Below are positions 1-5,397 of a stretch of DNA of 57,931 nt, in pieces. The first letter of the stretch is position 1. Every line of letters begins with the position of its first letter. The notes under the pieces are model-generated. The model was not told the origin of the DNA and did not search any database. It was given only the letters and a program-made list of their open reading frames with translations. Made by a program: the position numbers and the translations under genes. The stretch is from an uncultured Geobacter sp. (GTDB taxonomy: Bacteria > Desulfobacterota > Desulfuromonadia > Geobacterales > CAIOGM01): positions 1 through 57,931 of the forward strand of contig CAIOGM010000148.1 in the NCBI GenBank assembly GCA_903857795.1. Reading direction: 5' to 3'.

Positions 1-207
1 CTGCTCTTCACGGACCAGCCGGGGGAGGTCCACCTCGGCGTAGTCGCTCAGGATAACCACCCGGGTGGTCACCGGGACGGTGCGGGTGACGCTGCTGCGC
101 AGCTCGGTGGCGGCCCGCTCCCGGCGGCTCTGCAGGATGAGTAGTTCGTCTGCCAGGGCAGGGACGGCAACAAGGAGGATGCCTATCAATAGAATGAGTG
201 CTTTCAA
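1..207 (-). CDS. Secreted protein, N-terminal part only (possibly an ABC substrate-binding family protein)
   Basis: The reading frame enters from the left edge and starts with TTG, overlapping the TGA stop of the upstream TonB receptor gene (TTGA overlap), which points to translational coupling. The first residues, KALILLIGILLVAVPALAD, form a clear Sec signal peptide with an ALA-type cleavage site. The visible mature part (ELLILQSRRERAATELRSS, later VVILSDYAEVDLPRLVREEQ) resembles the start of periplasmic substrate-binding proteins of the 'ABC transporter substrate binding' family, which sit next to TonB receptors in related bacteria. That family call is inference from about 50 residues. Only 69 codons are in the window, so the C-terminal part cannot be judged. 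Confidence 0.55.
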   Translation of the reverse strand, partial: MKALILLIGILLVAVPALADELLILQSRRERAATELRSSVTRTVPVTTRVVILSDYAEVDLPRLVREEQ

Positions 208-2114
208 AACTTGAACCTCACGCCACCTTCCAGCCAGCGGCCGGCGTTGGGGAATTGTTGTATTCCGTATTGTGCACTGTTGAACAGGTTATAGGCGCTC
301 AGGAAGAGTTCGGGCGACAGCTCGTTGCCCGGAAGCAGCTTCTGGGTCAGGTGCATATTCCAGAGAAAATTCCGGTCCTCAGTCGCTCTATTATTCAGGG
401 ATCCATTCCACCAGACGTAGTTGCCGTTCAAGATCCCATGGAGACCCCAGAGGGGATTGTCGTAGATGACCGCCAGCTTGATCAGGTCGCCGGGCATCCC
501 CTGGACACGGATGCGGCTCTCCTTGTCCCGCAGGTCGGTCATGGTGTAGCCGCAGTTCAGAGAAAAACCGTAGAGGGGAACCGTCCGGAGCTCGAGCTCA
601 AAGCCCTGGCGAATCTGGCTTGATGTGGTCCTATCTCCTGAAATACCCGGCATGTTCCAGGTATCGTTGTAGAAGAGGGTCCCTTTGAACCAGAGAAAGG
701 GGATATCTCCCGTCTCGGCCCCGACTTGCACGGTCCACCCCTCCTGGGGCTTGACATTGGTGTCATCTACCAGCGCCCGGCTGTAGCCACGGGCAAAATA
801 GGCGCGGAGAACACTCTTCTCATTCAGACGGTAGGTGGCGCCGAGGGTATAGCTGACCTCATTGTGATCGGCATCGATGCGGTCATATCGGAGACCGGGG
901 AGGATGGCCAATGCGCCGTAGCTGAGCGTACCGTTTGAGTAGACACCATAGCGATTGAACCCCTTATTAAATTGATCCAACGGATCCGCAATAATCGTTT
1001 CGGCCTGGCCAACCTGATTATGTTCGTATTCGAGACCGGTTACCAGGTTGTACCGACTGTCGCCCCAGGTCAGACGGGCGCTGCTCCCCCAGTCGGACTC
1101 CTTATTGAAATAACGCTTATACTCCGTCGGCGGTGAGATGTTTCCCAGCCGGTCATCCTGTTTAAGGTAGCCATAGTGACCGATCACTTCGAGGTTGAGG
1201 CGCTCGTCCAGCGGATACTGAAAGGTGAGAACGGAGGAGAGCTTCTTCCAGTCAAAATTGTCATGCCAGTCATCGGGCCAGGGGACATTCTGAACCTCTT
1301 CTTGGCCCACTCGCGAATTGGCGCTGCTGCCGGTGAGAGTCAGCCGTCCTTTGGTCGGGAGGTCATAGACGAGCTTGCCGAAGATGTTGTTTTGATTGAT
1401 GCCGTTGTTCGGCAGGAGTCCATCGGAATGGAGTATCCCGCCGGAAAGGTAATAACCGAACCGGTCGATTGTCCCGGTGACCTCAGCCCGCTGCTCGGTG
1501 GTGAAGCGGTCGCCGAACGAAGAGTAGGTGGAACCACTAAACGGCTTGTCGCTGTTCGGAGACTTGGTGATGATGTCCACCACCCCGCCAAGAGCCTGGC
1601 CCCAGGCGGCCGAAGCGCCTCCCTTGATGATCTCCACCCGCTCGATCTGCTGAACCGAAATCATTCCGAGATTTGCAGCGTTTTCCCCCTGCATGTTTTG
1701 GCTGACCCCGTCGATCAAAACAAGGATGTGACCACCATTTGCGCCCTGGATGGAGAAGGAATCCAGAACGCCGGGAGTGCGTCCCGCCCGGTCGAACTGA
1801 ATCCCCGGGACGGTATTGAGCACCTCTGCCAGAGTATGTGCGTTCAGCTCCTCGATCTGTTTGGCAGTGATGACGGTGACGTTTTCGGCGATCTTTGAGA
1901 TGGGCCGGGGGGAACGTGCGGTGGTGACGATCTGATCAGCACCTGTCTCGAAGCCCAACGTCTTGAGATCGAGGCCCGGCTCTTCAGCCTCATCACCCCA
2001 TGAGGGAGCGGCCAAACAGAGGAGAAGGAGCAGGACAATGCCGCACTTAACGCGGAACGATGAAAATACAGAGTAGATCGACGGGAATTGAGTCACGTGA
2101 CGGAGACGCTCCAT
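204..2114 (-). CDS. TonB-dependent outer-membrane receptor
   Basis: A 636-residue gated outer-membrane channel. After a hydrophobic signal (IVLLLLLCLAAPSWG, about residues 27-41) comes a TonB-box-like stretch (ADQIVTTARSPRP), then a plug domain (ENVTVITAKQIEELNAHTL, VPGIQF, ILVLIDGV, IERVEIIKGGASAAWG, GGVVDIITK) as in BtuB/CirA-type receptors. The rest is a beta-barrel ending in an aromatic residue (GGVRFKF), the usual sorting signal. The substrate cannot be read from sequence; metal chelate or cobalamin are possible. No cobalamin riboswitch lies upstream, but an AT-rich Fur-box-like stretch does. The ATG lacks a convincing ribosome binding site; a GTG six codons downstream (2096) is an alternative start. 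It is divergent from the RiPP locus and coupled to the gene at the left edge. Confidence 0.9.
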   Translation of the reverse strand: MERLRHVTQFPSIYSVFSSFRVKCGIVLLLLLCLAAPSWGDEAEEPGLDLKTLGFETGADQIVTTARSPRPISKIAENVTVITAKQIEELNAHTLAEVLNTVPGIQFDRAGRTPGVLDSFSIQGANGGHILVLIDGVSQNMQGENAANLGMISVQQIERVEIIKGGASAAWGQALGGVVDIITKSPNSDKPFSGSTYSSFGDRFTTEQRAEVTGTIDRFGYYLSGGILHSDGLLPNNGINQNNIFGKLVYDLPTKGRLTLTGSSANSRVGQEEVQNVPWPDDWHDNFDWKKLSSVLTFQYPLDERLNLEVIGHYGYLKQDDRLGNISPPTEYKRYFNKESDWGSSARLTWGDSRYNLVTGLEYEHNQVGQAETIIADPLDQFNKGFNRYGVYSNGTLSYGALAILPGLRYDRIDADHNEVSYTLGATYRLNEKSVLRAYFARGYSRALVDDTNVKPQEGWTVQVGAETGDIPFLWFKGTLFYNDTWNMPGISGDRTTSSQIRQGFELELRTVPLYGFSLNCGYTMTDLRDKESRIRVQGMPGDLIKLAVIYDNPLWGLHGILNGNYVWWNGSLNNRATEDRNFLWNMHLTQKLLPGNELSPELFLSAYNLFNSAQYGIQQFPNAGRWLEGGVRFKF

Positions 2115-2136: not shown

Positions 2137-2225
2137 GAACAAAATAAGCACGTTGCCTTATATCAGAAAGCATGAGATAACACAACGTATACAGATAGAG
2201 CCATACGAATTCATGGAGGTAAAAC

Positions 2226-2324
2226 ATGACAACGGAAAATAGTGATCTCGAAGTTCTCGACGAAGGAACAGACAACACGGAAGAAATCCCGACCTGCTGT
2301 ATTGGAAGCACTGGCCGCGCGTAA
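2226..2324 (+). CDS. Small RiPP precursor peptide (geopeptide-like), 32 residues
   Basis: A perfect GGAGGT at 2215-2220 sits five bases before this ATG. The 32-residue product has an acidic leader-like N-terminal half (MTTENSDLEVLDEG, then DNTEE) and a short distinct C-terminus, IPTCCIGSTGRA, with two adjacent cysteines. It ends 34 bases before the start of a radical SAM/SPASM maturase on the same strand. Acidic leader, Cys-containing core, strong ribosome site and adjacent maturase are what is expected of a ribosomally made, post-translationally modified peptide. The maturase resembles the enzymes associated with 'geopeptides' in Geobacter, so this is most likely the substrate. The modification and biological role are unknown. 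The peptide is too short for most gene finders. Confidence 0.72.
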   Translation: MTTENSDLEVLDEGTDNTEEIPTCCIGSTGRA

Positions 2325-2358
2325 TTTTCCAACAGTCACAAATGACACAGGTACAGGC

Positions 2359-3718
2359 ATGCTGTCCTGCTACGTAAAAATCTATCCATGCCGTGACCAA
2401 TCAGGTTCCAGTCTGCTCTACTCCACGAAAAAGGGTTCCTTGATCAGGGTCTCGTCGGCCTTGCTGGCCGCCATCGAACAGGATTCACTGACCGATGCGG
2501 ATCGGACAACCCTGACACGACTGCAAATCCTTACCGATGACCCGGCAGCCGAGCGAGAGGCGATGGCCCAGCTGGTCAACCGGACCAACGTCCGGGCCCG
2601 AACGTTCTTTGCGACGGTGGTCTTGACGCTTGACTGCAATCTGGCCTGTCCCTACTGCTTTGAAGATCACTTCCGGGGCCGGTTCGCCATGAACGAAGCG
2701 ACAGCCGGACTCCTGATGGAGAAGATCGAGCAGGAAGAGATGGGGCAGGGACGGGATGTGACGCTCCGTTTCTATGGCGGCGAACCGCTGCTGGCGGTGC
2801 CCAGACTCAAGGAGATCGCCCGCCGCCTTCGTGCAACCGCAGCAGCCACCGGCACGAAGTTCACCTTCAGCCTCGTCACCAACGCCACTCTCCTGACCCG
2901 ACCGCTGGTGGAGGAGCTCCTGCCGCTAGGGCTGACCTCGGCCCAGATCACCCTGGACGGCCCGGCGGAGATTCATGACCGCCAACGCCCTTTCGTCTCG
3001 GGACACGGCAGCTTCGCGGCCATCGTGGCAAATATTCAGGCGGTCTGCGACCTCATCACCCTCAAGCCGGGGGGGGAACTTCACCCGCGACAATTACCAA
3101 AAATTCCCGGAGATGCTGGACGCGCTGCTGGCAGCCGGGATCGATCCGGCTCGACTCGGCCCGGTGCAGTTTTCCCCGATTCTTCCCAAGTCGGGAGTAC
3201 GAGACAGCAGCAGCGACTGCTGCGTTTCGTGTGGCGAACCGTGGCTCATGGAGGCAATCGTGTTCCTCCGGGAGGAGACACTGAAGCGCGGCTTCGGGGT
3301 GGAGAAACCAGCCATGGGGGTCTGCATGGTGGAGTTGACCAACAACCTGGTGGTCAATTACGACGGCACTCTCTACAAATGCCCTGCATTCATGGGATGG
3401 CCGGAGATGGCTGTGGGTACCCTGGCCGACGGCGTCAGCGACTACTCCGTTTCCCACAACCTGGATATTTGGAAGAACGACGACTGCCTGGAGTGCGCCT
3501 ATCTCCCCTTATGTTTCGGCGGCTGCCGGCTTCTGCCGCTCTTGAACCACGGCGTCATCAACCGCGTCGACTGCCGCAAGGAGTTCTACGACACGACCCT
3601 GGAACGTTTCATCCTTCAGGATTGCCGTAGCCATACGGCAAAGAGCGGATCAACTACCTGCCATGGTCCGTCATCGTCGGCAATGAGGTCCAAGGTTGCC
3701 AGTTGCTTTACCGAGTGA
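2359..3718 (+). pseudogene. Radical SAM/SPASM peptide maturase (geopeptide type), split by a one-base frameshift
   Basis: The first part (2359 to about 3070) opens MLSCYVKIYPCRDQSG and carries the radical SAM cluster motif CNLACPYC, then FYGGEPLL and LVTNATLL. At a run of eight G (3069-3076) the frame breaks. The homologous sequence continues in the +1 frame with GGNFTRDNYQKFPEMLDALL and ends in a SPASM region (CVSCGEPW, MGVCMVEL, DGTLYKCPAF, CLECAYLPLCFGGCR) expected to bind auxiliary Fe-S clusters. Removing one G gives an uninterrupted protein of about 450 residues. The 3' end runs about 100 bases into the convergent ATPase gene, and its last 30 residues look non-native. Function inferred from family: installation of a crosslink or similar modification on the adjacent peptide. 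The frameshift may be real, phase-variable, or a sequencing error in the homopolymer. Confidence 0.82.
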
Positions 3719-4731
3719 CCGATGCCGTTGGTTGATCCCAGATGGTGGGTGCGAACAAAATTTTTAGCCATCACCTGCTGAGTCGGTTCTCTGGCCAATG
3801 CCCGGAGAAGGAGTCGTTGTTGGGGAGGAAGCGGTTGTAGCATTGCCTCAAAGACCGGACGCTCCGTAGCCAGCAGATCGCCAAATGCTTCATCAATATG
3901 AGTCGTAGTCACCTCCTGCTCGGCCACCTCAAATGTCAAATAGCCAAGGCGTTGAGTGTAGTGAGGATGACAATGTACGCGGCGCACCAAGTCAGTCGCA
4001 ACGGATTCAAGGCAGCTGGTCCCAGCCACGGCAAAACGGCTCCGGACAAAGTCGGTCAGTTCCCCTTCAGGGAGAGGAGGTAAGGCAAAGTTGTGAGCAC
4101 TCTGGAAAAAAGGGCGTTGATTCTCGTTGAACATGGCGATAAGGAGACGTCGCCGACTGCCGACAAAGCAATGTGACGCTTGATACTGCTGAATACTGCT
4201 GCGCATGGCGGCTTCAATCTGACGGACTTCAGGCAGGATGGTGATTTCCTGAAATTCATCGAAAACCGTATGAACGGGTCGCCCGACTCGTGCTACAAAT
4301 TCTCCAAGTTCATCCAGTGCAGCTTCAAGGAGGGACATCCCCTGTCGGCCTTCAGACGCTTCGACACTAACCTCTACCCCTCCATCCTGTGACGGACGGA
4401 GAACGGGCCGGAAGGTTTTTATGGTCTGGAGAGCTTTATCCCAGAGCGGTTTCTCTCCGTGGGTTACTCGAAATACTGCTGCCGCCACCCGGGAAGCGAC
4501 CTCATGCAGTGATGCCACTCCGTAAAAATCAACGAACAGCGTTACCGTCCCCTGGTCTCGCAAGGTCTTCTGAACGCGGCGCATCAATGAAGTCTTGCCG
4601 TAACGCCGCGGCGAATACAGAACGACATCATTGTGCGACTCGGCGAAACGGAGTAGAGCCGCCAACTCCTTACTGCGATTGCAGAACGGGGCATCGTCAG
4701 GGAGCGCTTTAAAATAAAAAGGATTTTTCAT
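3616..4731 (-). CDS. AAA ATPase of the archaeal-ATPase (STAND-like) type
   Basis: A 371-residue P-loop ATPase. Residues 39-48 (YSPRRYGKTS) form a Walker A of the RRYGKTSL kind, with Ser where the first Gly is usual. Residues 152-161 (PVHTVFDEFQ) are Walker B, and GSRRRLLIAMF is a sensor-like strand. The C-terminal third resembles the winged-helix part of these proteins (QQRLLLRALA, and the terminal DPLFAVWLR typical of the family). Cellular role is not known; members occur as solitary or mobile-associated genes. The 3' end overlaps the RiPP maturase by about 100 bases, suggesting that it arrived by insertion. Two near-palindromes lie just upstream and may be its operator. Confidence 0.85.
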   Translation of the reverse strand: MKNPFYFKALPDDAPFCNRSKELAALLRFAESHNDVVLYSPRRYGKTSLMRRVQKTLRDQGTVTLFVDFYGVASLHEVASRVAAAVFRVTHGEKPLWDKALQTIKTFRPVLRPSQDGGVEVSVEASEGRQGMSLLEAALDELGEFVARVGRPVHTVFDEFQEITILPEVRQIEAAMRSSIQQYQASHCFVGSRRRLLIAMFNENQRPFFQSAHNFALPPLPEGELTDFVRSRFAVAGTSCLESVATDLVRRVHCHPHYTQRLGYLTFEVAEQEVTTTHIDEAFGDLLATERPVFEAMLQPLPPQQRLLLRALAREPTQQVMAKNFVRTHHLGSTNGIGHSVKQLATLDLIADDDGPWQVVDPLFAVWLRQS

Positions 4732-5205: not shown

Positions 5206-5397
5206 ATGGGAAGAATGAGTGAAAACCCGCGCTACAACGTCATCTCCATGAGAATCAGCGATGAAGAGCGGGAGACCCTGCAGGAGCTCATCCAGAGTAC
5301 GCAAAAGAGCGTCTCCGATATCATGCGGGAGGCAATGGAGCTGTTCAAGCACCAGCTCGTGTCCCGGAGCCAGGAGATCAACAGGAAGGCAGCCTGA
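5206..5397 (+). CDS. Ribbon-helix-helix (CopG/Arc-type) DNA-binding protein
   Basis: A 63-residue protein beginning MGRMSENPRYNVISMRISD. The start was chosen because AGGAG (5193-5197) lies 8 bases upstream; an upstream in-frame ATG lacks such a site. The strand NVISMRISDEER followed by two helices (ETLQELIQSTQKSVSDIM, REAMELFKHQL) is the usual ribbon-helix-helix layout, and such proteins act as dimers on palindromic operators. No toxin partner follows it; the next gene is the convergent cysS. It is probably a stand-alone transcription regulator. The gene is preceded by an unusually long structured noncoding region. Confidence 0.75.
   Translation: MGRMSENPRYNVISMRISDEERETLQELIQSTQKSVSDIMREAMELFKHQLVSRSQEINRKAA

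Follow-up and report, generated by a model that had tools for sequence, protein, structure and literature searches.

Geopeptide gene pairs, each a short Cys-Cys precursor followed by a radical SAM/SPASM maturase, usually sit in a conserved cassette with a TonB-dependent receptor, a periplasmic binding protein and a two-component sensor. What our analysis chiefly adds is this set of receptor and sensor genes; the NCBI definition covers the pair alone. The copy that we analysed lies in a 57,931-nucleotide stretch of DNA from an uncultured Geobacter sp. (hereafter, the window) and is a member of the named family with a probably broken enzyme, beside a cassette that is worth following. Because of the conserved neighbours, we favor a model, to which we assign a probability of about 0.5, in which a Cys-modified peptide would be released, re-imported and sensed, carrying a metal or similar ligand by analogy with methanobactin. 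About three in four sampled genomes of the order that contains Geobacter carry the maturase, yet the function of the family is undescribed; its conserved association with a receptor, a binding protein and a kinase now offers a testable hypothesis, that of an exported modified peptide that is retaken and sensed.

The precursor gene (positions 2,226 to 2,324, forward strand) encodes a 32-residue peptide, MTTENSDLEVLDEGTDNTEEIPTCCIGSTGRA, with a LEVLDEG leader and a Cys-Cys core. A GGAGGT ribosome-binding site (2,215 to 2,220, forward strand) lies 5 bases 5' of its ATG, and a 34-base gap separates its stop codon from the maturase ATG at 2,359. Compared with the NCBIfam profile TIGR04229 ('geopeptide'), the peptide matched all 22 profile positions with 30 bits (E = 3e-07), equal to the curated cut-off of 30, and scored 28.3 bits in a six-frame search of its own genome, making membership borderline on score. 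A TIGR04280 maturase gene nonetheless follows it closely, an arrangement seen at 77 loci, and 78 homologous peptides were recovered by motif. Based on these matches, the pair belongs to an already named NCBIfam family. The initial annotation had described a 32-codon frame with a perfect ribosome site and a maturase 34 bases on, which the coordinates bear out along with the Cys motifs; its description of the family as unannotated does not hold, because TIGR04229 and TIGR04280 already name both genes. A search of an open literature library with the family name and accessions found no paper describing the geopeptide family. In many loci (for example, L140, L141, L097 and L160) a short hairpin, often CATCC...GGATG, stands directly 5' of the ribosome site, and no Rfam family matched the geopeptide 5' region in the five loci tested.

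The maturase, which had been read as one intact frame from 2,359 to 3,718, is in fact split. Its 5' part (2,359 to 3,076, forward strand) comprises an N-terminal recognition-type domain and a radical SAM domain with the CNLACPYC motif and matches positions 3–244 of TIGR04280 ('geopeptide radical SAM maturase'). The 3' part (3,068 to 3,718, forward strand), in a shifted frame, matches the consecutive positions 239–426 as well as the SPASM profile TIGR04085, with homology ending near 3,628. Between them, a run of eight G (3,069 to 3,076, forward strand) is one base longer than the seven G that the codons of a conserved Pro-Gly-Gly-Asn form in two relatives, L085 and L087 (a third, L088, has six); reading on in the shifted frame after this run, the SPASM domain is lost. 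The two frames scored 337.9 and 298.4 bits, so that neither half reached the 400 bits used as the minimum for a single frame, compared to mostly about 530–720 bits for intact homologues. The cysteines claimed for the enzyme are all there once both frames are read, namely CNLACPYC and all seven of the SPASM domain, and these Fe-S cysteines (radical SAM CxxxCxxC and SPASM) are conserved in 110–111 of 111 maturases. A shared or programmed frameshift was rejected: relatives have seven G or fewer at this site, and three other damaged maturase copies (L154, L161 and L162) break at positions different from that in the window.

Judged by its identities to relatives, the window maturase gene is also a chimera. 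Residues 1–60 are 67–68% identical to L085 and L088 and 45% to L087, while residues 61–390 are 83–98% identical to L087; at synonymous sites the gene diverges from L087 by 1.8 over codons 1–60 and by 0.26 over the 3' part. Relative to L087, dN/dS is 0.15 before the break and 0.17 after it, suggesting that the gene was under purifying selection until recently. Because substitutions around the break are mostly synonymous, the break is either recent or a sequencing error. Interrupted by one base and chimeric, this copy probably makes no product, and the locus is probably decaying. Whatever the system does, an error of sequencing or assembly, with a functional maturase in the organism, is a serious minority reading of this copy: the change is a single base within a homopolymer, the draft consists of 179 contigs, the run is G7 in both L085 and L087, and the enzyme is otherwise conserved and under purifying selection. 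Against such an error, another eight-base run (C8, 9,639 to 9,646) sits within an intact YgbB (ispF) gene, and the downstream kinase and regulator are likewise missing from the window locus. Homology to L087 stops at 3,622, and an AAA ATPase gene (3,616 to 4,731, reverse strand), tail to tail with the maturase, occupies the place that the kinase and regulator have in L087. The stop looks as if a rearrangement had replaced these two genes.

Elsewhere, the family is widespread. Of 141 genomes of the order, 103 have a TIGR04280 maturase, as do 41 of the 395 sampled across the phylum, genomes of the same order included, and the pair also occurs in other families of the phylum beyond the order. From 77 maturase loci we extracted 78 peptides with a LEVLDEG-type leader, Cys-Cys and a variable tail; as the search motif demanded a [DE]xG-type leader turn and Cys-Cys, both are present in all 78 by construction. 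Such a peptide lies upstream in 77 of about 85 maturase copies. The Cys-Cys is mostly 8–11 residues past the leader Gly and 7–10 from the peptide end, and tails may be polar, such as TGGTSSARK, or hydrophobic, such as FYMYMYIGTL, with a range between. TIGR04229 itself gave matches in only 45 of the 141 genomes and thus covers part of the family. Small open reading frames with the leader-plus-Cys-Cys pattern and a ribosome site numbered 71 in 123 kb upstream of maturases versus 4 in the remaining 2.2 Mb of strand at these loci, a density ~300-fold higher. The initial annotation had named a missing small gene near related maturases, or an unconserved frame, as grounds against its reading; we found the frame conserved and the tail varying. 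Its interpretation of the locus as a RiPP pair is supported by the curated pair match, the Cys-Cys small gene upstream at 77 loci and a maturase predicted to resemble CteB (see below), but it had missed the frameshift and the conserved receptor and sensor neighbours. More distant relatives of the maturase, below the profile cut-off (L220–L228), are mostly without a peptide. In some families outside the order the maturase (L205, L207 and L208) is extended at its C terminus by about 260–290 residues; we do not claim a natural peptidase fusion.

The conserved neighbourhood is dominated by a single TonB-dependent receptor family, present at 77 of 81 maturase loci; of the four loci without it, three lie at the end of a contig and one, L147, has a maturase that has diverged. 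Periplasmic binding proteins of the PF04392 family occur at 65 of the 81 loci, a histidine kinase at 62 and an NtrC-type sigma-54 activator at 33. Neighbours were clustered by sequence similarity, so that some of the kinases and regulators counted are unrelated members of their families. Of the 141 genomes, 98 have both maturase and receptor, 5 the maturase only, 10 the receptor only and 28 neither (odds ratio = 55, Fisher P = 3e-16, not corrected for kinship). Outside the order, receptor, peptide and maturase are co-directional, while the genes of the binding protein and kinase diverge from them, and the receptor link is kept in most loci above the maturase cut-off despite the changed gene order. 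The receptor aligns with BtuB over most of its length, and its invariant residues include no conserved Cys or His pointing to a metal ligand site. No inner-membrane permease was found alongside the binding protein. We do not claim that the N-terminal domain of the maturase varies together with the receptor more than general relatedness would predict: its partial correlation was 0.22, below the 0.42 of the catalytic part. A sigma-54 promoter before the peptide was also rejected, as sequences upstream of the peptide showed no enrichment over shuffles despite the NtrC-type regulator. At ~22 of 77 loci (for example, L164, L123 and L107, but not the window), a two-box element, TA[GA]CAGA-N11/12-TTGTCCA or near variants, lies 50–96 bases before the peptide start with nearly fixed spacing; the exact pattern has 26 matches in the 141 genomes, most beside a geopeptide-type receptor, compared to 20 scattered matches for a reversed control.

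For the chemistry of the maturase, an AlphaFold model of the L087 enzyme (mean pLDDT = 91.8) shows an N-terminal domain of strands and helices, followed by the radical SAM barrel and the SPASM region. The solved structure that it matches best is CteB, the SCIFF thioether maturase (~19% identity over the aligned structures); CteB also ranks first among solved structures when another intact homologue is compared by sequence. Based on this modelled resemblance, the reaction is probably Cys thioether formation. CteB (PDB 5WGG/5WHY) and the PapB-type ranthipeptide maturases share the radical SAM, SPASM and N-terminal recognition-type domains with the geopeptide enzyme, whereas the geopeptide has two adjacent Cys rather than six Cys or CX3D motifs. 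The family is distinct from SCIFF itself, which has a six-Cys precursor and a TIGR03974 maturase: the geopeptide has two Cys, and an intact homologue scored 110.8 bits against TIGR03974, compared with a cut-off of 425. Relative to the TIGR04229/TIGR04280 pair as defined, the window has the same gene order and a spacing similar to that of relatives, and differs in the frameshift that splits its maturase.

In the model that we favor, the radical SAM/SPASM enzyme, guided by the leader through its N-terminal domain, would install a Cys-based, probably thioether, change in the 32-residue peptide. The mature peptide would then leave the cell, return through the adjacent TonB-dependent receptor and bind to the PF04392 protein in the periplasm; the histidine kinase, together with the NtrC-type regulator, would report its presence, with autoregulation. 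The most likely job of such a peptide may be the carriage of a metal or similar small ligand. Methanobactin precursors are peptides of ~30 residues with Cys, encoded next to a TonB receptor, a periplasmic binding protein and regulators. A receptor and a binding protein likewise accompany the geopeptide precursor (77 and 65 of 81 loci, respectively), and the likeness to the MbnA, MbnT and MbnE system extends to the ~30-residue Cys precursor and the regulators. In methanobactin systems the TonB receptor is MbnT and the periplasmic protein MbnE (PMC7558416). The geopeptide system is not methanobactin, however, because MbnBC-type enzymes are lacking: the cassette proteins match only the radical SAM, Plug, PF04392, kinase and sigma-54 activator families, rather than MbnB or MbnC. 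Further differences are that the maturase is a radical SAM/SPASM enzyme, that the binding protein is PF04392 and not OppA-like, and that regulation is by a kinase and an NtrC-type protein; metal binding by the geopeptide is suggested by analogy. A precedent for the import of a radical SAM-made peptide product is PQQ, which can enter via the TonB-dependent receptor PqqU (PMC12124388). PQQ differs in being a quinone cofactor made from Glu-Tyr, its precursor has no Cys-Cys, and PqqU is only distantly similar to the geopeptide-type receptor. The main weakness of release and re-import is that no dedicated exporter or peptidase was found conserved near the pair at the 81 maturase loci.

The variable tail, very hydrophobic types included, would fit a signal or membrane-acting peptide as well as a metal carrier. 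A peptide serving purely as an autoinducer, with the receptor, binding protein, kinase and regulator reading cell density or kin and no metal involved, is somewhat unlikely, though it would account for the conservation of kinase and regulator with the pair and for the diversification of both core tail and receptor between species, and without a permease nothing requires that the peptide enter the cytoplasm. The Cys-Cys, however, is invariant in a core that otherwise varies, favoring a chemical role of the thiols, and the usual task of TonB-dependent receptors is to take up nutrients or metallophores. Still less probable is a redox or cofactor-like peptide kept inside or on the cell, with the receptor cassette handling some other co-regulated ligand. 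Such retention would agree with the lack of an exporter and with receptor cassettes that occur without a maturase in 10 genomes, also as extra copies, but these receptor-only loci also fit the uptake of peptides made by others, and the link with one receptor family is tight and independent of gene order. An antimicrobial that enters rivals via TonB receptors, the adjoining receptor being target or decoy, has precedents in radical SAM sactipeptides and TonB-using microcins and would suit the hydrophobic cores, but is very improbable given that no immunity or export gene is conserved and that the kinase, regulator and binding protein would not be expected.

With slightly less than even confidence, we regard geopeptides as a phylum-wide class of extracellular peptides that are made by radical SAM enzymes, are served by a TonB receptor, a periplasmic binding protein and a two-component system of their own, and act as metallophores or species-specific signals; some lineages would keep the receptor after loss or breakage of the maturase, as non-producing users of peptides from other cells. 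The window retains an intact 636-residue receptor gene (204 to 2,114, reverse strand; PF07715), divergent from the pair and closer to the receptors of L085 and L088 (62–63% identity) than to that of L087 (47%). Next to it is the start of a periplasmic binding protein gene (1 to 238, reverse strand; PF04392 family in relatives), recognized by alignment to the L087 gene, a signal peptide and an LILQS motif, and cut by the contig end. The same genome (G000) has two further receptors of this family, on contigs C102 (L165) and C30 (L166), both without a maturase. The C102 receptor is 91% identical to that of the window; the C30 receptor is 96% identical to that of L087, and between receptor and kinase C30 is collinear with L087 minus the peptide and maturase. 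Given the frameshift, the genome may hold only non-producing loci and, speculatively, could be using peptides made by others. The window and C102 contigs both stop inside the gene of the binding protein, probably because a repeat broke the assembly there. Two structured RNAs were also detected in the window: an atoC motif (RF01733; 4,864 to 4,951, forward strand; 71 bits) 5' of a small open reading frame ending at 5,397, and a cobalamin riboswitch (RF00174; 16,105 to 16,311, forward strand; 109 bits).
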